From positions 1-45,529 of IMG/VR virus record IMGVR_UViG_3300044622_001316: DNA of 45,529 nt. The stretch is one strand, 5' to 3'. Shown here piece by piece: positions 4,401-16,402 of the stretch. A program made the translations under genes and the position numbers. Below the pieces are notes generated by a model, which did no database searches, was not told where the DNA came from, and saw only the letters and a program-made list of their open reading frames with translations. How positions within the stretch are numbered: position 1 is the first letter of the stretch; every line of letters begins with the position of its first letter. The stretch comes from a virus.

Positions 4401-4453
4401 GGCTGGACTCCTACTTTGTACCTATTTTGGCACTAGCTGTCGAGAGGTGATCC

Positions 4454-4714
4454 GTGCGCGAGTGGGATACGCCTGTGCGGGGCCCGTGGAACGCGCTGAT
4501 TAAACAGTGCCTGGATGCGATTGATAGGCACGAGGAGTTATATCGCTCCAGTGGGAGTGGATGGCACGCGGCGAAGGCGCAGGATTTGCGGTGGTATGTG
4601 GCGGAGTTAAAAGATTGGATTCACGCGCAGGAGCGTGTCACCACTTCGTCTTGTCCGCCCAGTACGCCGGGGACATCTTGCCACGGGCAATGTTACTGGC
4701 GTGCCTTGCTTTGA
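4454..4714 (+). CDS. Small conserved-looking protein, opposite to head operon
   Basis: 86 aa, GTG start with AGAGGTG four bases upstream, a strong ribosome site. Residues 12-60 (NALIKQCLDAIDRHEELY, then HAAKAQDLRWYVAELKDWI) form two amphipathic helices and recall a small protein family I remember from cyanophage genomes. After residue 61 the sequence is low-complexity and overlaps the opposing gene (4638..4913) by 77 bases. It runs against the flow, divergent from the portal gene. Function unknown. Confidence 0.55.
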   Translation: MREWDTPVRGPWNALIKQCLDAIDRHEELYRSSGSGWHAAKAQDLRWYVAELKDWIHAQERVTTSSCPPSTPGTSCHGQCYWRALL

Positions 4715-4913
4715 ATGATGCCCGTCTGGCCTGGTCTGCTGCTGATTCTCCTTTTCGTGGTGGTGAGCCAGATACGCCCTGTTGGCCGAAGCGGATGAGT
4801 TTGATCGTGCTGCCCTCTTTGGCGAGGACGGCGTGGGATTTGGTGGGGTGGTTGGGGGTGCGCTTGGGTTTGTTGTAGCCCTCGAAGCGTTCGCCGCGAT
4901 ACTCAATCGTCAT
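4638..4913 (-). CDS. Small basic protein (DUF6321-like)
   Basis: 91 aa from ATG 4913; an upstream in-frame ATG at 4994 lies inside the preceding gene. It begins MTIEYRGERFEGYNKPK and ends KMSPAYWADKTKW, a pattern I associate with a small conserved family of marine phage and cyanophage proteins. It is strongly basic (many Lys/Arg, few Asp/Glu), so nucleic-acid or capsid-interior association is possible. It overlaps the previous gene by 11 bases and is in line with the head operon. Confidence 0.7.
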   Translation of the reverse strand: MTIEYRGERFEGYNKPKRTPNHPTKSHAVLAKEGSTIKLIRFGQQGVSGSPPRKGESAADQARRASFKARHASNIARGKMSPAYWADKTKW

Positions 4914-5103
4914 CTTCGGGTTCCTCGTCGTCGGGGTCGGGCAGGGGTACCAGGATTTCGATGCCGTGGGCAAGCATCGTGACGAAGCCGCCAAGAGTTT
5001 CGGGGAGGGAGGGGGTTTTGAAGACGAAGGTGGCGTGGGTGAGGCCCTCTTCTGCGTCGATGTCGATCTGGACGCAACCGCCGTTAATTGTTTGGATGGC
5101 CAT
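4903..5103 (-). CDS. Small acidic hypothetical protein
   Basis: 66 aa. Beta-type N-terminal half, then a very acidic tail (DPDDEEPEDDD). It starts at ATG 5103, overlapping the stop of the large structural gene upstream, and ends inside the start of the next gene, so it is translationally coupled on both sides. No family recognised. Confidence 0.65.
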   Translation of the reverse strand: MAIQTINGGCVQIDIDAEEGLTHATFVFKTPSLPETLGGFVTMLAHGIEILVPLPDPDDEEPEDDD

Positions 5104-6365
5104 TAGCGGCTGATTTCCTCCCAGTCCATGGATGCATGTACGTTAGACGTTGCCGTACCCGCCGTGACAACGAGGCTTAATTCGTAGGGGGTTGTTGCGA
5201 GGCCGTTGCGTTCCAGTTGGAATTTGAAAAGTGCTTCTTTGAGGATGTCCACTGAGGATGTGCTCTGATTGGTGGAGCTGAAATAGCCCTGGGCAAGGAT
5301 GCGACCGCCGGTTGTTGCTGTTCCAGTCAGGTTGTATTCGACGCTGGATTCTGTTCCGGCGCTTGTCCAAGTGCCTCCGGTGGTTGTGGCAGAGGCAACT
5401 ACACGCCAGTTGTAGTTTGCGTTGGCTGTGGCGCCAAGGATGGATAGGGCGGTAAGGATTACAATCGCATCTAGTGCGGTTGATTTAAGGCGTAAAGAGA
5501 TGATTGGGTAGTATGTGCCGGCTGTGGTGAGGGCGTAAGGGGCAGTTATTGTTGTGCCGATGGCTTGTTGGAGGCCGCGGAGTTCGTAGCCGCCTTCAGA
5601 AAGTACGGTTGAGCAGACTTGTTTGAGGGTGCTTGTGCTGGCGGTGGCGGCGGTGTTGGTTATTTCGTAGCGGAGAGGAAGGGAGGCGGTGGTGATGTAG
5701 GTGGAGGTGATGATGTTGGCGTGGTGGAAGGAGTGGCAGTGGATGAATTTGCCGTTGATGACGAAGCCCATGCGGACTGTGCCGAGTCCCAGCCACTCGA
5801 TATCCATCCAGAGGATTTGGGATTTGGTTGGGTCGAGGGTGAGATTGGAGGGGCCGGTGCCGTTGAGGGGGTCGATGTTCCAGTTGGATTGGGCGACGCG
5901 GGTTTCGGCGAGGGTGCCGGTGGAGGAGCTGCGTTCGACGAAGGAGAGGGTGGTGTTGTCCAGCTCCAGGTACATGCCGTTGGCGGCGCCGTAGTAGCCG
6001 ATCCGCTGGCGGAGGTTGGTTTTGGCGGGGTTGAGGGTAAAAGTGGACATCACCAGCAGGGATTTACCGGGCTGGTAGGAGAAGCATTTTGTGGTCTCGC
6101 GGATGACCTCGGAGCCGGAACTGGTGGTTACGGAGAGGTTGACGAGGCCGGCGTTGGCGTCGAAGGTTGCGGTGCCGCCGGTTGCGGTGGAGGTGCTCCA
6201 GAGGCCGTTGTCGTGGTAGCGGTGGCTGGAGTCAAAGAGGGTGAGCGGGCTTGACGTGCGAATGCGGCCGAAGGCGTCGGTGGCTCCAGCAGCATTGGAG
6301 CCGCCCGCAGTGCCGTAGGGGGTGTAGTACGGGTTGTTGACGGAGATCGTGTTGAGTAGCTGCAT
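5103..6365 (-). CDS. Putative structural (head decoration or neck) protein
   Basis: 420 aa, Ser/Thr/Gly/Asn-rich and beta-sheet-like throughout. Residues about 29-53 (DAFGRIRTSSPLTLFDSSH, then RYHDNGLW) resemble a conserved opening of proteins encoded in marine phage structural modules. It lies between small basic proteins and the portal, so it is more likely a head-associated or decoration protein than a fibre. The 3' third (5140-5560) is visibly more AT-rich than the 5' part, which suggests a domain swap. The exact role is unassigned. Confidence 0.6.
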   Translation of the reverse strand: MQLLNTISVNNPYYTPYGTAGGSNAAGATDAFGRIRTSSPLTLFDSSHRYHDNGLWSTSTATGGTATFDANAGLVNLSVTTSSGSEVIRETTKCFSYQPGKSLLVMSTFTLNPAKTNLRQRIGYYGAANGMYLELDNTTLSFVERSSSTGTLAETRVAQSNWNIDPLNGTGPSNLTLDPTKSQILWMDIEWLGLGTVRMGFVINGKFIHCHSFHHANIITSTYITTASLPLRYEITNTAATASTSTLKQVCSTVLSEGGYELRGLQQAIGTTITAPYALTTAGTYYPIISLRLKSTALDAIVILTALSILGATANANYNWRVVASATTTGGTWTSAGTESSVEYNLTGTATTGGRILAQGYFSSTNQSTSSVDILKEALFKFQLERNGLATTPYELSLVVTAGTATSNVHASMDWEEISR

Positions 6366-6392
6366 GGCGGCCTCTGTGTAGGGAAAATGAGG

Positions 6393-6548
6393 CTATTTCT
6401 TGGGTTTTTTGGCGGTTTTGGCGGAGGCTTTGAAGGAGGCGGCGGTGGGGGCGCCTTTGGAGCCGGGTTTGCGCATTTTTTCGCCGCTTCCGGCAGCGAT
6501 GCGCTTGCGCTTAGCGTTGATGTTGGCGTAGAGACCGGGTTTAGCCAT
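6393..6548 (-). CDS. Small Lys-rich protein
   Basis: 51 aa, MAKPGLYANINAKRKRI at the start, then a tail of Lys/Ala/Pro. The start ATG at 6548 overlaps the stop of the next upstream gene as TAATG. It is extremely basic. Two such peptides in a row just after the terminase suggest DNA-binding or virion-internal polypeptides, a common cyanophage arrangement as I remember it. Function unproven. Confidence 0.7.
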   Translation of the reverse strand: MAKPGLYANINAKRKRIAAGSGEKMRKPGSKGAPTAASFKASAKTAKKPKK

Positions 6549-6742
6549 TATTTTTTACCTTTTTTGGTGGATTTTTTCTTGGGCATGGACATGCCAGCCT
6601 CGGAGAGGGCGATGGCGATGGCCTGTTTGCGGGATTTCACCACGGGGCCTTTCTTGCTGCCCGAGTGGAGTTCGCCTTTGCCGTACTCGCGCATGACTTT
6701 GGAGACTTTTTTCTGGGCCTTGGTGGGTTTTTTGGCGGCCAT
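6548..6742 (-). CDS. Small Lys-rich protein (DUF6496-like)
   Basis: 64 aa. Residues 11-34 (KKVSKVMREYGKGELHSGS, then KKGP) and SRKQAIAIALSEAG near residue 37 match a small family I recall as DUF6496, found in bacteria and phages. Highly basic with a Lys-rich tail. It follows the large terminase by 15 bases and is coupled to the next basic protein through a one-base overlap. Confidence 0.75.
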   Translation of the reverse strand: MAAKKPTKAQKKVSKVMREYGKGELHSGSKKGPVVKSRKQAIAIALSEAGMSMPKKKSTKKGKK

Positions 6743-6757
6743 AACGTCCCAGGTGGG

Positions 6758-8008
6758 TTACCACACACGATAGTTGGTCTTGCCGAGGGATTCTGGTTTG
6801 GCGAGGTTGAAAGTTTGGAGGCAGAGGTAGCCGAGGGCGTCGAAAGCGTGGTCCACGCCGAGGTTTTTGTTGGGGAGGCCGGTGCCGGGGGCGTAGGTCA
6901 GGGTGCGGAGGGATTTTATGAGTTCCTTGCAGCGGGGGTGGATGAAGAGGCGGCGGGTTCCAGTGGCGTCGAGGAGGGCGGTGTTGACGCAGGTGATTTT
7001 GTCGCGGATTTTCCAGGGGGAGCGGGGGCTGGAGACGGTGAAGCCGGACTTGCGGAGGATGTTGTGGTCGGTGGCGCCGACGCCGGAGGTTTTGCGGGCG
7101 CCGCCGGTGGGGTCGGGGCAGGCGATGATGCGGCGTTCCACGCCGAAGCGGGACTGGATTTCTTCGCAGAGGTCCCAGGTGGTGGCGCCGCCGGTCATGA
7201 TGACCTCGTCGAAGATCCAGAGGACGTCGCCTTTTTTGACGCCGCAGACGGCGGACATGGGGTCGATGTTGAAGTCGACGCCCAGGAGGAGGGGGAGGAC
7301 TGGGAGGTCTTGGACCAGCTTGTCGATGTTGTCGTCGGCGAAGCTGATGGCGACGAGGCCGGAGAGGTTCTCGAAGCTGGCCTCGAATTCTTGGCGGAAG
7401 GTGCGGGCGTCGAGTTGGGCGCGGGCGGCCTCGATTTCCTCTGGGGGGACGTTGTCGCCTTCGATGGTGGTGAATTGCCAGCGGCTCCAGTCCGGGTCGT
7501 CGTTTTCGCAGTAACACCAGAGGTCGTAGAACCAGCTGGCGGTGCCGTCGGGGGTGGAGATGAAGAGGGCCCAGCCCTGTTTGTCGGCGAGGGCGGGGCG
7601 GATGACCTCGAACCAGACCTCGGCGTCCATGAAGGCGGCTTCGTCGAGGACGACTCCAGCGAGGCTTCGGCCGCGTAGGGCCATGGCGTTTTCGGTGCCT
7701 TTTAGCTCAATCGTGCTGCCGTTCACCAGCTCGATCTTGAGGTCCGTCTCGTTTTTGCTCTTGATCCAGGCCTTGGGGACCAGCTTTTTCATCACTTTCC
7801 AGGCGATGTCCTTCGCCATCCGGTATGTAGGGGCCGCGTAGAAGAATGTTTCGCCCGGTCGCTCGATCGCCCCACGCAGCAATTCGATACATGAGAGGTA
7901 GCTTTTTCCGAAGCGGCGGCCTGCTACCAATACTCTGAAGCGTTTGCGGCTGGAAAATACCTCGCCCTGGGCGTATCTCAGGGTTAGCGCACCAGCAGAA
8001 TCGGGCAT
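6758..8008 (-). CDS. terL: Terminase large subunit
   Basis: 416 aa. ATP-driven motor and nuclease that packages the genome into the prohead through the portal. Walker A AGRRFGKS at 29-36 and Walker B VVLDEAAF at 119-126 with its catalytic Glu. The RNase-H-like nuclease half has acidic residues at GVDFNIDP (D245, D249), CPDP (D299) and DHAFDALGY (D386, D390). Length is normal for a compact TerL. The ATG at 8008 has only a distant AGAAGG about 20 bases upstream, so initiation may be weak. Small terminase lies about 0.9 kb upstream on the same strand. Confidence 0.95.
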   Translation of the reverse strand: MPDSAGALTLRYAQGEVFSSRKRFRVLVAGRRFGKSYLSCIELLRGAIERPGETFFYAAPTYRMAKDIAWKVMKKLVPKAWIKSKNETDLKIELVNGSTIELKGTENAMALRGRSLAGVVLDEAAFMDAEVWFEVIRPALADKQGWALFISTPDGTASWFYDLWCYCENDDPDWSRWQFTTIEGDNVPPEEIEAARAQLDARTFRQEFEASFENLSGLVAISFADDNIDKLVQDLPVLPLLLGVDFNIDPMSAVCGVKKGDVLWIFDEVIMTGGATTWDLCEEIQSRFGVERRIIACPDPTGGARKTSGVGATDHNILRKSGFTVSSPRSPWKIRDKITCVNTALLDATGTRRLFIHPRCKELIKSLRTLTYAPGTGLPNKNLGVDHAFDALGYLCLQTFNLAKPESLGKTNYRVW

Positions 8009-8036
8009 TTGTATTTTTGGGGGTACCTTCTAGGGT

Positions 8037-8062
8037 AGTACAGAGAATCGAACCCCTGCCCC
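8037..8062 (-). other. tRNA T-arm-like fragment in terminase leader
   Basis: Read on the minus strand, AGGGG-TTCGATT-CTCTG has the consensus T-loop TTCGATT, but only three of the five stem pairs hold if G-T is discounted. It is preceded by a GCCCC-AAT-GGGGC hairpin. No matching 5' acceptor half was found within 150 bases, so it is not a complete tRNA. It may be a tRNA or tmRNA 3' remnant or chance. Confidence 0.2.
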
Positions 8063-8210
8063 ATTGGGGCGTGTGTAACAGTAGGAAGAATTGAGAATGT
8101 GTCAGTAGGTTCCCTATGCGCTGCCACGCGCCGCCCATCGCCGGACCCTACCCCCGGCCGGGGGAGGCGGTGGGCCGGTGGGCCGCTTCCGCCTCGGGGG
8201 TCGGTGGGGA
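8063..8210. other. Gene-free spacer between terL and helix-turn-helix gene
   Basis: With the fragment to its left this forms a 202-base spacer (8009-8210). It holds no convincing ORF. It contains a GC palindrome CCCCCGGCCGGGGG near 8151-8164 that could form a strong hairpin, without a U-tract on either side. Confidence 0.4.
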
Positions 8211-8585
8211 TCAGGCAGTGGCAGCCATGCGGCGGCGAACTGTAGCGCGGCTGCAGCCGAGCTGAGCGGCGATGGCGCGCTGGCTCAGGCCCTGAGCGTA
8301 GAGAGCCAGCACGGTTTCAGTGGTGACGGTCTGCGTGGTGACCGAGGCACCGGTCTCGGCGATCACGGCAGCCAGTGGTTCAGTTGTACTAGTCTCGGCA
8401 GTGCGTGGGCGGGTCGGCCAATTGCGAGCCAGTAGGTCGTTTGTACTATGCACCCAGCGGCCTAGCAGGCGGCCTAGGTGGTACGTGTGAACCACTAGCG
8501 TTAGCACGAAAGCGACGTAGGGAGCGATGGTACGGGCATACTGCTCCAAGCGAGCAGAAACTTGAGCGGTTGTGGGGTAGTGCAC
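8211..8585 (-). CDS. Helix-turn-helix protein with possible membrane segment
   Basis: 124 aa from a GTG at 8585 with GGAG six bases upstream; an open frame extends to 8672 but lacks a ribosome site there. Residues about 20-45 are hydrophobic (IAPYVAFVLTLVV) and could be one membrane helix. The C-terminus is a clear resolvase-type helix-turn-helix (LALYAQGLSQRAIAAQ, then LGCSRATVRRRM). A linker rich in Thr joins them. It could be a membrane-tethered regulator, or the hydrophobic part may be a buried helix. The upstream DNA carries AT-rich inverted repeats, so autoregulation is plausible. Confidence 0.6.
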   Translation of the reverse strand: MHYPTTAQVSARLEQYARTIAPYVAFVLTLVVHTYHLGRLLGRWVHSTNDLLARNWPTRPRTAETSTTEPLAAVIAETGASVTTQTVTTETVLALYAQGLSQRAIAAQLGCSRATVRRRMAATA

Positions 8586-8642
8586 TTGTTCTCCTTGGTG
8601 TAGGTGGATTGTGGGTGAAGGGTCCGTTGCTCCCTCACCCAT

Positions 8643-8697
8643 ACAGTATAACACTACAGGCAGGCAGAACACCGATACTGTAACATATTGTAATACA
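8643..8697 (-). promoter_or_regulatory. AT-rich operator-like inverted repeats
   Basis: An AT-rich patch in GC-rich surroundings holding ACTGTA-N11-TACAGT, plus related words TACAGTAT and ACTACAG to its left. It lies 60-110 bases upstream of the helix-turn-helix gene on the minus strand. On that strand TATACT could serve as a -10, but no convincing -35 was seen. Operator function is inferred from symmetry and position. Confidence 0.4.
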
Positions 8698-8715
8698 GTT
8701 CAGATGTACTAGCCT

Positions 8716-8829
8716 TCAGCGATCCATGTAGAGAGCGCTGCATCCCACGCCAGCGAAGAACACAGCTAGGGGTGGCAGTGTGGTCACACAAGCGAGAGTG
8801 AGGAAGGTTGCTGCAGTGAGCTTAAGCAT
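8716..8829 (-). CDS. Possible small membrane peptide
   Basis: 37 aa, MLKLTAATFLTLACVTTL then a second hydrophobic stretch AVFFAGVGCSALYM. It has the look of a signal-anchor or tiny membrane protein. No good ribosome site precedes the ATG and the frame is short, so this is a weak call. Confidence 0.3.
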   Translation of the reverse strand: MLKLTAATFLTLACVTTLPPLAVFFAGVGCSALYMDR

Positions 8830-8929
8830 GGGGTGGTGTCCCGTGGTACCCTCACACAGTAGCGAAGCCGGGGACCGTAGCAAGGTTGCGACGCTCCAGC
8901 GTTCACACTTTGTAACACTCGCAGTGGGC

Positions 8930-9421
8930 TCAGGCTTGCCGCTTGTCTTCGACCGTGATATTGAGCGTCGGGGCTGCCGCGGCCGCGGCTTCCGGCGCAA
9001 CCTCGCCAACGACCGCGCCAAGGTCGCGCATCAGCAGCTGAGCCGAGCCGATCTGGCCCTTTCGGATCGCTGCGTCAATCGCTCTCATGCGCATAGCCTG
9101 CAAACGTGAAACTATACTCTCGCGATCTTTACTCCAATCTTCCTCGTTCCATTGCTTAACGGCGTCCCAATCACGCCAAGCTGTAACTTCGCCGATGCTT
9201 TCACGGTCAGCATGATCTAGCACCAGTTGGCGAACAGGTAAGCCCGTCAACTGCCGCTTGTACAGCCGCTTCCGGCGCTCTTCAATCACGGCGTCAGGGT
9301 TACGTTTCCCGTAGGGTCGCGGCTTGTTTGTTACAGCTTCCGGCTGATCTTCCGGCGCTGCGTTGTTAGCTTCCGGCTGATCTGTCACGGTTACAATCCC
9401 CAACGGCTTTGGTTCAATCAT
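8930..9421 (-). CDS. Probable terminase small subunit
   Basis: 163 aa from ATG 9421. Another possibility is a GTG at codon 12, which has GGGG nine bases upstream while the ATG has no ribosome site. Residues about 45-75 (basic RRKRLYKRQLTG, then PVRQLVLDHADR) could be a DNA-binding helical domain. Residues 85-140 are long amphipathic helices like the oligomerisation core of small terminases, ending in an Ala-rich linker and a short beta tail. It lies upstream of terL on the same strand, where TerS is expected. No sequence signature is unique to TerS, so the call is contextual. Confidence 0.55.
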   Translation of the reverse strand: MIEPKPLGIVTVTDQPEANNAAPEDQPEAVTNKPRPYGKRNPDAVIEERRKRLYKRQLTGLPVRQLVLDHADRESIGEVTAWRDWDAVKQWNEEDWSKDRESIVSRLQAMRMRAIDAAIRKGQIGSAQLLMRDLGAVVGEVAPEAAAAAAPTLNITVEDKRQA

Positions 9422-11474: not shown

Positions 11475-11663
11475 ATGGCGACAGACTACGTTGCAACATT
11501 GGAGAAACTCTCAGGGGTGCTCCAGGCGGTTGACGAGTTGCAGGCAGAATTGAAGGTTTTACGGGAAACCGTGCCAGATGATGCCTGGGATGCTCTGGCT
11601 GATGGACCTTTCGGGGATCTGCTGGCCCACTGCCTGGAAGTAGAACACCAGTTCGAGTCATAA
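11475..11663 (+). CDS. Small acidic coiled-coil protein
   Basis: 62 aa, MATDYVATLEKLSGVLQAV then DELQAELKVLRETV: one amphipathic, Leu-heptad helix followed by an acidic tail. It has its own upstream dyad cluster and a perfect terminator 5 bases after the stop, so it is a single-gene transcript. Such small autonomous units in phages are often regulators or host-takeover proteins; here that is only inference. Confidence 0.6.
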   Translation: MATDYVATLEKLSGVLQAVDELQAELKVLRETVPDDAWDALADGPFGDLLAHCLEVEHQFES

Positions 11664-11668
11664 CCACA

Positions 11669-11689
11669 GGGGCCCGTGGGCCCCTTTTT
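11669..11689 (+). terminator. Rho-independent terminator
   Basis: GGGGCC-CGTG-GGCCCC followed by TTTTT, five bases after the stop of the 62-aa gene. Textbook form. Confidence 0.9.
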
Positions 11690-12095
11690 ACTACCTGCGG
11701 GTGAGACTCGTGAGACACACACTGAGACACCGTGGCCGGTCAAGCCGCCTACGCTCCAGGGCAAATGCACCATGCCCGGGCACGGATGTATAGGTTTTGT
11801 CGCAAGCCATGAATGGTTTTTGTGCGAGGTCGAAGACCGAGCACTATGAATGGGGCCCCAGGCTAGGTATTTTTACTGGCGAGAACGGCCAGAGGCCAGG
11901 GGCTCCAGCAGCCTACTGGCCTCCTTTCATGAATGGGTTTTTACTGTAGTAGGCTAAGCCTGTATGAATGGCTTTTAGGGTTATGGAAAGTCGCAACTGG
12001 GGAAGCACGCTGTTCTGGTTAGCTGCCGTGCCTCTCACGCTTCTGTTGCTGTCGAAACTACCTGCTCCAAGCACTCGTATTTGCGTGTGCCCCAG
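11690..12095. other. 406-bp gene-free convergent region, possible replication origin
   Basis: No convincing ORF on either strand, which is rare in this tightly packed genome. It lies between two gene 3' ends (11663 plus, 12096 minus). It holds three TGAGAC direct repeats (11702-11728), four ATGAATGG motifs, a GGGGCCCC palindrome at 11850, a strong hairpin at 11892..11923 and AGGCT-A-AGCCT at 11951..11961. Repeats plus hairpins near replication genes suggest an origin, a packaging site or a structured RNA. Confidence 0.5.
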
Positions 12096-12466
12096 CTACG
12101 TTTGTGTTTGTCCATGAATGGCGTTTTGCAGCTGGTCGAAGTAAAGCTCCACCCTGGCCATGAATGAATCCTCGGCCTCTTTTAAGTCGCGTAGCGACAT
12201 TGAATGGACGTTGGGGGCGCCACAGCGGCGAGCCAGGATGATGGCTGCTCCAGTTGGTTGGAGGCCCGTGAGGTGCTTGAGGCCCAGGCTGTAGGCGCCG
12301 CACTGGTCGATGTATGAATGGCCGGGCGGCAGGCGTTCCAGGCCGTCTTCGTCTTTTGTGGTCTTGCGGCCGACGCTGGTCTTCCAGTCGGCTAGTACCA
12401 GGCTGTTGTTCTTGAGGCCGATCAGGGCGTCGCAGGTTCCAGCGAAGCCGGCGGGGTGATGAATGG
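11809..12466 (+). repeat. Nine ATGAATGG-like direct repeats (iteron-like array)
   Basis: Perfect ATGAATGG at 11809, 11846, 11929, 11964, 12114, 12314 and 12459. Near copies are ATGAATGA at 12160 and TGAATGG at 12201. All are in one orientation. Start-to-start spacings are 37, 83, 35, 150, 46, about 40, about 114 and 145, several near multiples of 36-40. Flanks are unrelated. Five copies fall inside the nuclease gene on its opposite strand in three different reading frames, so the repetition is at DNA level. I did not notice this 8-mer elsewhere in the window. Confidence 0.75.
11892..11923. other. Strong composite hairpin in the gene-free region
   Basis: GAGGCCAG ... CTGGCCTC is a perfect 8-bp stem enclosing a second GGCT-CCAGC-AGCC stem. 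It sits between repeat copies two and three. It is followed on the plus strand by CTTTC and, after the next repeat, TTTTT, so it might end plus-strand transcription, but it may equally be an origin hairpin. Confidence 0.55.
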
Positions 12467-12944
12467 AAAATTCCGACGCGAAAATCTCGGTGACGTTCTC
12501 GGCGATCCAGTCTGAAAGACTGCGGGCGTAGCCTGAGGCGCTCCAGCCCACACGGGGGACGTTCGGTCTTACGCGCGTTAGCGCCCATTGTGTGATTTTG
12601 GGCGGGATGCGTGCCAGGCCGTCGGAGTCCCAGCTGATGGCATTGCGCTTGTTGGCGGTATTGCGTGCCAGCTGCTGGGCGGTCTTCAGTAAGTATTCAG
12701 CTTGTGAGTGGGCCATGTTGCCTCGGGTGGCGGCAACGTTGCGCTGGCTGGTGGCCTCGGCGGGTCCCAGGCGAGCAACCCAGCGATCCAGTCCTGTGGT
12801 GTCGCTTGTCTCTTTGAGAATATGAGTTACTGAGTGATACACAGTGCCGTTTGCGTCTCTGTAGACGCGGAATGGGCCAGAGTTATCCTGTTCCAGCCTC
12901 CATCTTCGTAGCGATGCCAGTGTGTCCTGGGTATTGGAAGGCAT
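12096..12944 (-). CDS. PD-(D/E)XK exonuclease (RecB/Cas4-like)
   Basis: 282 aa from ATG 12944. A GTG at 12962 would lie at the predicted transcript start and has no leader. Motifs of the RecB nuclease fold are GNMAHSQAEYLL (His of motif I), FAGTCDALIGL (motif II Asp), LVLADWKTS (motif III, D-x-K) and DQCGAYSLGL (Gln/Tyr helix). Such phage enzymes degrade or process DNA ends during recombination or host DNA breakdown. It has its own promoter (12967..12995). The coding strand contains five CCATTCAT-type words belonging to the repeat array. Confidence 0.85.
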   Translation of the reverse strand: MPSNTQDTLASLRRWRLEQDNSGPFRVYRDANGTVYHSVTHILKETSDTTGLDRWVARLGPAEATSQRNVAATRGNMAHSQAEYLLKTAQQLARNTANKRNAISWDSDGLARIPPKITQWALTRVRPNVPRVGWSASGYARSLSDWIAENVTEIFASEFSIHHPAGFAGTCDALIGLKNNSLVLADWKTSVGRKTTKDEDGLERLPPGHSYIDQCGAYSLGLKHLTGLQPTGAAIILARRCGAPNVHSMSLRDLKEAEDSFMARVELYFDQLQNAIHGQTQT

Positions 12945-12966
12945 TTGGATAGTCTGTCCCACTTTG

Positions 12967-13247: not shown

Positions 13248-13829
13248 TCAAGCGGCCTTGAAGGGGTTACCTCCGGTCAGAAGGCGGGTGAGGTCGAAGC
13301 CTTCGGCTTTGGACTCCAGCCAGGCGGCGTCGATGTGCTCTTGGCTGCCTTTCTTGCGGGGGACGGGGCGGACGGTGTACTCGGTGGTGAGGCCGCTGCC
13401 TTTTTTGCTGATGCTGAAGTCCCAGGAGAGCAGGTCTTCGTAGTCCTCCATTTGGGAGATCGAGTCCAGCTCTTTGAGGATGGACTTTTGGGTGATCTGG
13501 AGGACTTGGACTTTGCCGGACTCGTAGTTGTAGACGGGCACGGCGATGGCGAATTTGACGTCGGCGGTGCCGGGGCCGCCGCGGCCTTCGCGGGGCTCGA
13601 AGTCGCCCATTTCCGCGGTGATGTCCTCGGGGGTGGGCTCGTAGTCAAAGCGGAAGGGGCGGGAGGCGCCGTCGCAGGTGCCCCAGCACTCGTAGAACTC
13701 CAGGGGTTCGTCGGAGAGCATGGCGAAGCGGACCGAGCCGCCGTCGGGGAGCTTCGAGAGCTGGAGGTAGCCGCCGCCAGCGCCGCTGGTGGAGACTGCT
13801 GCTGAGGCTGCTTTTGAAAGGAAAGCCAT
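13248..13829 (-). CDS. Putative single-stranded DNA-binding protein
   Basis: 193 aa from ATG 13829; upstream in-frame codons cross the promoter region and are unlikely. Residues about 98-160 (YNYESGKVQVLQITQKSILK, an acidic linker, then DFSISKKGSGLTTEYTV) follow the beta-barrel pattern I associate with phage gp32-like ssDNA-binding proteins. N-terminal Gly/Ser-rich segment, C-terminal helical tail. It is divergent from the primase-helicase and probably coats its template strand. An OB-fold is inferred, not demonstrated. Confidence 0.6.
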   Translation of the reverse strand: MAFLSKAASAAVSTSGAGGGYLQLSKLPDGGSVRFAMLSDEPLEFYECWGTCDGASRPFRFDYEPTPEDITAEMGDFEPREGRGGPGTADVKFAIAVPVYNYESGKVQVLQITQKSILKELDSISQMEDYEDLLSWDFSISKKGSGLTTEYTVRPVPRKKGSQEHIDAAWLESKAEGFDLTRLLTGGNPFKAA

Positions 13830-13857
13830 TGTGTTTTGGTGTTTGGGATGTCGCCTT

Positions 13858-13905
13858 GAGTGGCAACCCTTGCACAGTAGCACGGGGTTGACCGAGTGGC
13901 TACCC
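13858..13905. promoter_or_regulatory. Direct repeats in divergent replication promoter
   Basis: GAGTGGCAACCC at 13858..13869 and GAGTGGCTACCC at 13894..13905, 11 of 12 identical, 36 bases apart. They lie in the 143-bp gap between the ssDNA-binding-protein and primase-helicase genes. TTGACC at 13888 could be a plus-strand -35, but no good -10 follows. Likely regulator sites. Confidence 0.5.
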
Positions 13906-13972: not shown

Positions 13973-16402
13973 GTGTCTCACGCGACGCAAGAGTTGCTGG
14001 CGTTTGTGCGCCAGTTGCCGGTGGGGATGGCATATGCCCCGATCTATGCCAAGGACAGGGCGCTCCAGTCTGGGAAAATTTCGAAGGGCAAGACGCCGCT
14101 GGAGAAGTCGCACCATGTGGTGATGACGCCGGCGGATGTGGCGCTGCAGATCGAGCGCCGGCCGGAGGTGTTCCAGGCCGTGGGGGTGTTTACGGGGGCC
14201 CGGAGTGGGGGCCTTGTGATCCTTGACGTGGACAGGAATCTGGCCAAGTTGCGGAAGAAGTGGGGTAGCACGCTTGATAACGCGCCAGTTATCACCAGCA
14301 CGAAGGCCAACGCGGCGAAGTACCTGTTTCGCGTGCCGGAGGCGCTGTGGGGTGAGCTGAAGGGGATTGGGCTTTCGGATACCGGGGCGGGGTACGAGGT
14401 GCTGTGGGGCCGTCAGGGGCTCCTGTATGGCGCTTATCCGGGCTCCAGCGATGGGAAGGCACCAGCAGGTCAATACGGGTTTGCAGGGGACCTGGAGGCG
14501 ATTCCAGAGGCCCCTGAGTGGCTTGTGGCGGAGATGAGGGATGCCGCGGGGAAGCAGATCGAGGATGGCGGGTTCATCAAGAACCGGAAGGCGCTGGATT
14601 TCTCGGATCGAGATCCAGCTGAGGTGGCTGAGTTTGTGCAGTCGGCGTTGCGGGTGATTCCAGGGCAGGGTGCGGGGAGCCGGGACCACTGGGTGAAGGT
14701 GGGGATGGCGATCCACTCGGAGTTGCCGAACGACCTTGGGTTGACGTTGTGGAGTGCGTGGTCGGCGGATGATCCGGAGTATTCGGAGGAGTGGGCGGAT
14801 TCCAATCCCTGTGAGGAGGTGTGGAAGTCGTTCAGAAAGGGGCCGGTGAGCCTGGGGACGCTGTTCTGGATGGCGGACCAGCAGATGCCCGGGCGGCTAT
14901 GGCTGTCGGAGGATTTGCGACGGATTGTTACGGAGGTAGAACAGGACCGTGTGCAGCGTTTCCGTAACACCGGCCTGCCACACGAAGAGATCGTTAAGCG
15001 CGGTGAAGCGGTCATGAAGCTGCCTAACCCGTCCGAGTTGCAGCACAAACTTCACGAGCTTGCGCTCGAAGCTGGCTACCGCGATGCGGCTGCTGTTGTA
15101 CGTCTGTTAATTGCTGATCAGGAGTTTCGTCGCGGATCGCATGGTGGATCGCTGCAGGAAATTTTTGCCACGGAGGAAACACCAATCGAATACCTGATTC
15201 CTGATTTGCTGCCGAAACCGGGAACTGTGTTGATGCATGGTCGTGGAGGATGCGGCAAAACGATGGCAGTTCTGACGCTGGCAAAACACATTGCCCGTGG
15301 GATTCCGTTTTCTGTACAGGGCCAGGACGTACCAGTTGAACAGGGCACAGTTCTCTGGCTTAACGGCGACCAGAACAGTCGGCGGATTCGTAAGCAGTTC
15401 AAAGACTTGGACTTCACCGCTGACGATCCGGTGATTGTGCGCAACAAGGTCTCGATGCTTTGGTATCCCTGGTTTATTCAGCAGATCGAGGAGCACCGTC
15501 CCAAGTTGGTGGTTTGGGATTCGGTGACGGCTTGTATGCGTGGTTGTGCTTTTGACCAGAACAAGGCTGAGTACGCCGAGCCGCTCTACTGGTACTCCTC
15601 GGAAAACGGCGAGAGCTTCCCGGCCACCACAATCCTCTTCATCCACCACGCCAACAAGGAGGGGGGCTTCAGGGGCACCACAGCGCTCGAAGACGGTGTG
15701 GATGAGTCTTGGGCTATCCGGCGACCTGAGAAGGGCGAGAAGGAGCGTGTAGGAGCCTCTGCGCGGCTTATCACCATCAACAAAAGCCGCGAGGGCAACG
15801 AGGGGAAGCAGTTGGTGCTGCGCCAGCAGGCTGACCTGACGTTCGAGTTAAAGGACCTGCCTAGTGAGGGGGTCGAGGAGGGGTCGCCGGCTTCGGTGGT
15901 GGATCGAGTGCTCCAGCGGCTGCGGACGCGCGGAGAGTCGATGACGCGGCGCGAATTGAACGCAGACCCAGTCGTGGGGGGAAGCGTTGAAGGGATCCGT
16001 AAGGCGCTCGAAAGGCTGATCGACCGTGGACTGGTCACGTCCGAGGGTAAGGCCAGTTACCGGAGGTACCAGGCTGTTACCGCGCGCAGGGGGGTCGGGC
16101 TAAAAGGTGTCCATTCTGAAGAAGAAGGCAGTGCTGGTACTGGATCTGACGATTCCGGGTGTCCTGAAGTGTCCGAAACTGTCCGGAGTCTGTCCTTTTT
16201 TGGGGCATCCGATGATTCAGGACACCCTTCCGCCCAAAAACGGACAAGACCGGACAAACAGGGTCAGTCAGATTGCTCAGATCCACTGCACCGCAACGTG
16301 TCTGACGAAAACGGACAGGATGCCAGCGGGCTATTCACGCGCGAGCGATCTAAGAGCGAACTGGACGACCTGATCCGTACAGCCGCGGATACCTGGAGCT
16401 AA
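13973..16402 (+). CDS. Bifunctional primase-polymerase / AAA helicase
   Basis: 809 aa, GTG start with AGGAG nine bases upstream. Residues about 1-195 are a Prim-Pol domain with the D-x-D motif LVILDVDRN (D85, D87) and a YLFRVP strand at 117-122. Residues about 215-305 resemble the primase C-terminal domain PriCT-2. Residues about 405-640 are a RepA/DnaB-like ATPase: Walker A GRGGCGKT 423-430, Walker B LVVWDS 512-517 and LFIHHANKE 555-563. The C-terminus (650-705) looks like a winged helix, followed by a low-complexity tail. One protein can thus prime and unwind for the PolA encoded downstream. Confidence 0.88.
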   Translation: MSHATQELLAFVRQLPVGMAYAPIYAKDRALQSGKISKGKTPLEKSHHVVMTPADVALQIERRPEVFQAVGVFTGARSGGLVILDVDRNLAKLRKKWGSTLDNAPVITSTKANAAKYLFRVPEALWGELKGIGLSDTGAGYEVLWGRQGLLYGAYPGSSDGKAPAGQYGFAGDLEAIPEAPEWLVAEMRDAAGKQIEDGGFIKNRKALDFSDRDPAEVAEFVQSALRVIPGQGAGSRDHWVKVGMAIHSELPNDLGLTLWSAWSADDPEYSEEWADSNPCEEVWKSFRKGPVSLGTLFWMADQQMPGRLWLSEDLRRIVTEVEQDRVQRFRNTGLPHEEIVKRGEAVMKLPNPSELQHKLHELALEAGYRDAAAVVRLLIADQEFRRGSHGGSLQEIFATEETPIEYLIPDLLPKPGTVLMHGRGGCGKTMAVLTLAKHIARGIPFSVQGQDVPVEQGTVLWLNGDQNSRRIRKQFKDLDFTADDPVIVRNKVSMLWYPWFIQQIEEHRPKLVVWDSVTACMRGCAFDQNKAEYAEPLYWYSSENGESFPATTILFIHHANKEGGFRGTTALEDGVDESWAIRRPEKGEKERVGASARLITINKSREGNEGKQLVLRQQADLTFELKDLPSEGVEEGSPASVVDRVLQRLRTRGESMTRRELNADPVVGGSVEGIRKALERLIDRGLVTSEGKASYRRYQAVTARRGVGLKGVHSEEEGSAGTGSDDSGCPEVSETVRSLSFFGASDDSGHPSAQKRTRPDKQGQSDCSDPLHRNVSDENGQDASGLFTRERSKSELDDLIRTAADTWS

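Follow-up and report, generated by a model that had tools for sequence, protein, structure and literature searches.

A one-stranded octamer array oriented with the large terminase gene in diverged phages: a putative packaging-initiation region

Introduction

The packaging-initiation (pac) regions known from phages SPP1 (PMC4737164), P1 (PMC10028697) and 9g (PMC5567051) bear repeats and lie at or near terS or a mapped terminase cut. In SPP1 and SF6, three sets of direct repeats cover the terS promoter and start (PMC4737164); in P1, seven TGATCR hexamers lie inside pacA (PMC10028697); and in 9g, two 21-bp direct repeats accompany a mapped cut (PMC5567051). Recognition of pac DNA by the small terminase is unsettled; in vitro assays mostly show weak binding that lacks sequence specificity (PMC9611059, PMC4737164). 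Oriented words of another kind, the Chi sites of lambdoid phages, are concentrated between the replication origin and the packaging site (PMC3784561).

Here we describe an array of a short word in a viral DNA of 45,529 nucleotides (IMG/VR record IMGVR_UViG_3300044622_001316, positions 1 to 45,529; hereafter the window), and compare it with these systems. A literature search on the word returned no relevant match.

Results

The array consists of seven exact copies of ATGAATGG, all on the + strand within 658 bp (11809-12466), and two near copies on the same strand, just as the original prediction had described it. No copy lies outside the cluster on the + strand and none on the − strand over the whole 45.5-kb window. 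Four exact copies (11809-11816, 11846-11853, 11929-11936 and 11964-11971) are intergenic, in the gene-free stretch with hairpins where they had been placed, which is the intergenic region (11664-12095) 3′ to the PD-(D/E)XK exonuclease gene (12096-12962, − strand; PF12705, phrog_298); in relatives, this is where the array varies. The first of these is followed by TTTTT, the third by G-TTTTT and the fourth by C-TTTT, and several window copies read ATGAATGG-n-TTTT. The other three lie in the nuclease gene, at 12114-12121 (codons of the variable C-terminal tail), 12314-12321 (codons for GHSYIDQ) and 12459-12466 (codons for FSIHH), as do the near copies ATGAATGA (12160-12167, codons for SFM) and TTGAATGG (12200-12207, codons for VHSM). 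On direct reading, a GC hairpin with a T-run at 11669-11689 (+ strand) looks like the terminator of the ORF at 11475-11663 and lies outside the array.

The zero-order expectation for ATGAATGG is 0.009 copies per 658 bp, in line with the ~0.01 first estimated, and 0.63 per whole strand. As any 8-mer could have caught the eye, we used as null the top count of any 8-mer per 658 bp, which was usually 3 and once 8 in 200 dinucleotide shuffles. Since one shuffle of 200 reached 8, the cluster within the window alone is unusual at the ~1% level, not overwhelmingly so, and the reality of the array is settled by sequence conservation in relatives rather than by window statistics.

The relatives, which are metagenomic contigs, were collected through the adjacent nuclease, giving 80 IMG/VR loci at 80-95% identity. 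In nearly all 80, CCATTCAT occurs on the nuclease strand only, within the gene and immediately 3′ to it, while the number of copies, their spacing and the sequence between them vary freely. Within 0-450 bp past the nuclease gene of the relatives, CCATTCA is found 313 times and its reverse complement 0 times (CCATTCA(T) is the reverse complement of the array word). Few copies occur elsewhere in the genomes of 13 near-complete relatives. Overall, CCATTCA(T) recurs in ~150 relatives despite turnover of copy number, spacing and flanks, so that the search for the cluster in relatives, called for at the outset, found the motif kept amid diverged flanks.

A second, independent scan, in which all viral contigs were searched for three spaced ATGAATGG, returned mostly phages with homologues of the large terminase (TerL), nuclease, primase or small-terminase-like protein (ts) of the window, and took in an AT-rich lineage (GC ~0.35) as well as several whose TerL is only distantly related. 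The same word lies 5′ of TerL on the same strand where TerL is only 23-30% identical and GC ranges from 33 to 66%. The array carriers are mostly uncultured, deeply diverged phages, whose identifiable relatives are cyanophages; the capsid protein of the window is 41% identical to that of cyanophage S-2L, and by this sequence evidence the window phage is related to cyanosiphoviruses. Among the five cyanophage isolates PSS2, S-CBS4, KBS-S-2A, MED4-117 and S-2L (PSS2, S-CBS4 and S-2L examined in part), no array and hence no cultured array-bearing phage was found.

Several contigs deserve separate mention. A small HNH-endonuclease-like ORF occupies the usual array site 3′ of the nuclease gene in L033 and L049, and its coding sequence itself holds several CATTCA words. 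In L076, CCATTCA is spread through many coding sequences between nuclease and ts (4434-9400). A 14.8-kb contig labelled as a Planctomycetota MAG (L213, JAPOKD010000065.1), probably a misbinned phage contig, carries a nuclease 53% identical to ours and CCATTCA 10 times versus once by strand. In G021 (108 kb, AT-rich), CCATTCA (39) and TGAATGG (3) are dispersed contig-wide, perhaps through a codon or genome-wide polarity effect, and this contig was left out of support, as was G034, which has only a sub-threshold TerL and probably a coding repeat.

On the TerL strand the element has the form (A/T)4-n-G-CCATTCAT, and (A/T)4-n-G-CCATTCA(T) is common to four clades. The proposal that spacings approach multiples of 36-40 does not hold: clustered copies in the relatives are spaced 7 to 60 bp, and the main clade shows no 10.5-bp helical phasing (R = 0.08; R = 0.49 in the small clade 2 set of 32 spacings). 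Certain arrays (L076, G033) consist of simple tandems of 9-12 bp. The units between words form small hairpins (CTCGG..CCTCG, GTGCTC..CGCAC) in L076, L061, L065, L040 and at 11820-11860 of the window; their reordering among genomes suggests shuffling at the word.

We then considered the copies inside the nuclease gene. Five had been said to use all three frames, which holds only when the near copies are counted, as the three perfect ones use two frames. The in-gene copies, near ones included, coincide with the conserved residues FSIHHPAG, GHSYIDQ, NVHSM and SFMAR, and codon conservation there is not exceptional; the frame argument alone is thus insufficient to prove selection on DNA, contrary to what had been claimed. 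The position of the copy at 12314 is kept in 63 of 73 relatives and that of the copy at 12459 in 46 of 73, and new word positions arose in some relatives (e.g., TTKDEDG to TAIQDG in L076). In the coding sequences of the 73 relatives, which are not independent, the word occurs 259 times against 42 ± 6 in synonymous-codon shuffles, and its reverse complement 0 times. Conservation driven by the protein explains the in-gene copies in part, and fails for the non-coding array and for the 6-fold excess over codon shuffles.

The strand bearing CCATTCAT is, in every lineage, that of the large terminase gene (6758-8008, − strand; PF03237). Between 0.5 and 8 kb upstream of TerL, we counted 893 CCATTCA on the TerL strand versus 29 on the other, and downstream of TerL a single one in 0.72 Mb; these TerL-anchored counts are effect sizes, not p-values, since related sequences are not independent. 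By comparison, 210 control words of the same composition (permuted letters) gave medians of 33 upstream and 30.5 downstream. CCATTCA ranks first upstream among the 210, which rules out an artefact of GC skew or composition. In coding sequence downstream of TerL, CCATTCA was observed once versus 10 ± 2.4 times in codon shuffles. In a map of 118 loci whose TerL identity is 85% or more, the density of CCATTCA on the TerL strand begins to climb at ~−6 kb, reaches its maximum of 5.3/kb at ~−4 kb and falls away before TerL. Between TerL and +12 kb this density is close to zero, and the opposite strand has ~0.02-0.1/kb along the map. The set with 70-85% TerL identity displays the same pattern.

Counted over 144 loci, CCATTCA lies 891 times on the same strand as TerL and 46 times on the opposite one (122 loci versus 5). 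In the 11 loci where ts is opposite to TerL, the words go with TerL, 79 to 4. This tracking of TerL even where neighbouring genes flip argues for a directional DNA element and against an RNA or codon explanation. In 20 array-bearing contigs (GC 0.33-0.66), 14 of the 14 TerL genes above the Pfam cut-off share the strand of CCATTCA and lie 3′ to the array, as does one further weak TerL; orientation and placement in G016 and G018 assume a circular genome, and G034 is the exception. The distance from array to TerL is 2-4 kb in most of these cases; in clade 4, where TerL lies 4-27 kb away, it is 7-27 kb in G020, G022, G024 and G025 and 3.7 kb in G028.

A second polarised word was also seen. In relatives L003-L082, CTGGAGC(G) (and CTGGAAC) is strongly over-represented and strand-biased, with 1183 occurrences against an expectation of 170 and an opposite-strand count of 190; the window has 38 versus 13. 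It lies on the TerL strand whichever way the genes run, with its highest density (2.9/kb vs 0.04) near −4 kb from TerL, and may be a Chi-like or other polarised word.

Word density is highest in the first 100 bp past the nuclease stop (23/kb), and reaches 6/kb in the first 100 bp past the stop of ts, versus a background of ~0.3/kb around that gene. The ts gene (8930-9421, − strand) encodes a small-terminase-like HTH protein, and in many relatives the array begins at its stop codon: L076 carries a 9-copy tandem whose first word overlaps it, and the arrays of G016, G031 and G033 begin within ~35 bp of it. In G017 and G019, a second ts-like gene lies directly 5′ of the array, and in the isolate MED4-117 the ts homologue is immediately upstream of TerL and overlaps it. 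The window array adjoins the nuclease gene and is separated from ts by 2.4 kb; the distance in clade 2 is 3-4.5 kb, and in clade 4 no ts homologue was found. In the AlphaFold model of ts (mean pLDDT 72), a long helical hairpin comes after an HTH. Its fold matches are weak, with annotated small terminases among them; nothing fell below E = 3 in the fold search against PDB, and the sequence searches against PDB, PHROGs and Pfam gave no clear small-terminase match. We infer that ts is probably the small terminase. Its identity is 26-98% outside clade 3, whereas the word is invariant. A protein encoded between ts and TerL (8211-8672, − strand), with a hydrophobic stretch and a C-terminal resolvase-type HTH, is another candidate DNA-binding factor. 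Upstream of the nuclease gene is that of a ssDNA-binding-like protein (13248-13883, − strand), and a Prim-Pol/PriCT_2/AAA_25 primase-helicase is encoded at 13973-16402 (+ strand).

Discussion

The array had been put forward as a candidate origin or a protein-binding array. The comparisons described here support the second part well, namely an array recognized by a protein, and the origin is disfavoured. A one-stranded, multi-copy, region-restricted word fixed to the terminase direction has the look expected of a packaging-initiation signal. Packaging recognition, one of the options originally listed, fits best because of the fixed orientation to TerL, the peaks past the ts-like gene and the depletion downstream of TerL. 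We thus read the array as a directional recognition array, putatively and most likely the pac region, a reading to which we give about an even chance.

The small terminase, for which the HTH protein at 8930-9421 is the best candidate, would bind several copies through a ring of HTH domains and recruit TerL, which would cut nearby; headful packaging would then proceed from the cut, taking in first the terminase genes and then the structural ones. Having several copies would provide avidity, leaving number and spacing free to drift while orientation and word stay fixed, and copies would be excluded downstream of TerL, where packaging would mis-start. As expected of a pac signal, the word is constant in its orientation and in its position 5′ to TerL and the structural genes, and is essentially unique to the site and avoided elsewhere. 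It lies near the putative small-terminase gene in many relatives (G016, G017, G019, G031, G033, L076). Against packaging, known pac sites are compact, whereas single copies here spread over several kb; ts varies while the word does not, and its fold matches are weak; the arrays of the window and of clade 2 lie 2.4 kb and 3-4.5 kb from ts; and clade 4 combines a TerL 4-27 kb off with the lack of a ts homologue in our searches. Contig ends fall within 100 bp of the array 9 times versus 4.5 expected, a mild excess for which assembly breaks at repeats could account, and the differing start points of near-complete relatives are compatible with circular permutation, without proving it.

The main rival to packaging is a Chi-like recombination signal, with ATGAATGG read by a host or phage enzyme of the RecBCD/AddAB type entering from the nuclease side towards TerL, so that copies near the packaging start would protect or recombine that end. 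The octamer size, G-rich 3′ end, fixed orientation and adjoining exonuclease/SSB module all suit such a signal, and in lambdoid phages Chi likewise clusters in the interval from the replication origin to the packaging site (PMC3784561). Chi, however, is expected throughout host and phage genomes, and here we found no dispersal through the phage genome but a single region, depleted downstream of TerL, with copies often in tight 9-12 bp tandem and the array absent from the five cyanophage isolates (three examined in part). We regard this reading as unlikely.

An iteron replication origin would have an initiator, e.g., the Prim-Pol/AAA protein encoded 1 kb away, bind the repeats, as the alpha protein of phage P4 binds the type I iterons of ori1/crr. 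Same-strand short repeats beside replication genes and hairpins would be in keeping with it. GC skew is positive along nearly all of the window (1-45529) whatever the coding strand, as expected under unidirectional replication, which such a uniform genome-wide skew would suit; but it shows no switch at the array. The repeats are not regularly phased in the main clade (R = 0.08, against 0.49 over 32 spacings in clade 2). Of 15 array-bearing contigs, some of which are fragmentary, 11 (G016, G017, G018, G022, G025 and G028 included) yielded no primase homologue, which speaks against linkage to this initiator, although another initiator is possible. An origin would also have no reason to hold its orientation with TerL across TerL proteins that are 23-30% identical. 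Overall, we consider an origin distinctly unlikely.

We assign little probability to a site that the phage's own exonuclease/recombination module would recognize or pause at, and which would keep DNA processing local: the density maximum just past the nuclease stop and the 10 to 1 strand ratio at the 53% identical nuclease locus speak for it, but clade 2 arrays lie away from the nuclease gene and a close nuclease was not seen in clade 4. An operator, terminator or 3′-UTR signal of the nuclease operon would account for copies in a 3′ untranslated region with hairpins, but is very improbable, since orientation tracks TerL and not the local gene (79 versus 4 in the loci with reversed ts). Functionless repeats arising by chance or slippage, for which the simple tandems of L076 and G033 could be cited, are refuted by conservation of the same strictly one-stranded word across GC of 33-66% and TerL identities of 23-30%, and their probability is negligible.

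Returning to packaging, we tentatively suggest that CCATTCAT may be a portable directional packaging address across several deeply diverged phage lineages, kept while terminase, GC and neighbours change, repeated in coding and non-coding DNA 5′ of the terminase and erased downstream; its reader could be a conserved domain of the small terminase or a shared host factor. With hundreds of natural instances of an 8-bp word that obeys rules of strand and position and is apparently avoided elsewhere, sequence-specific recognition can be tested directly. The word also allows the packaging axis to be oriented from sequence in uncultured phages, and suggests that such a recognition signal can persist longer than its neighbouring proteins.

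Of the genomes compared, cyanophage S-2L shares related virion genes (capsid 41%) and the set of PD-(D/E)XK nuclease, SSAP and Prim-Pol, but has 2 CCATTCA in the 39.4 kb examined and no array. P4 ori1/crr resembles our locus in its same-strand short iterons near a primase-helicase gene; here, by contrast, spacing is irregular, orientation is fixed to the terminase and a primase homologue was not found in several carriers. Lambdoid Chi is also an oriented octamer concentrated near the packaging side, but it is host-wide and dispersed, whereas we observe compact arrays with few dispersed copies in most genomes. The 9g pac shares direct repeats next to a terminase cut, mapped by experiment in 9g and predicted from sequence here; its repeat is longer and present in two copies. 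SPP1, a siphovirus of similar genome size, and SF6 also have direct repeats beside the small-terminase gene (putatively ts here); the box repeats of SPP1 are few and show only moderate conservation even in SF6, whereas a single 8-mer is conserved here among phages with distant TerLs, frequently lying 3′ to the ts or exonuclease gene. P1 pac likewise has several copies of a short word in and around coding sequence, presumably for terminase recognition, but its word differs and its repeats contain Dam sites and span 161 bp, whereas here all copies are on one strand, in variable number over 0.1-6 kb, and common to very distant phages. Compared with pac sites generally, the present array stands apart by its kilobase scatter, free spacing, frequent position past an exonuclease gene and conservation across very distant phages.
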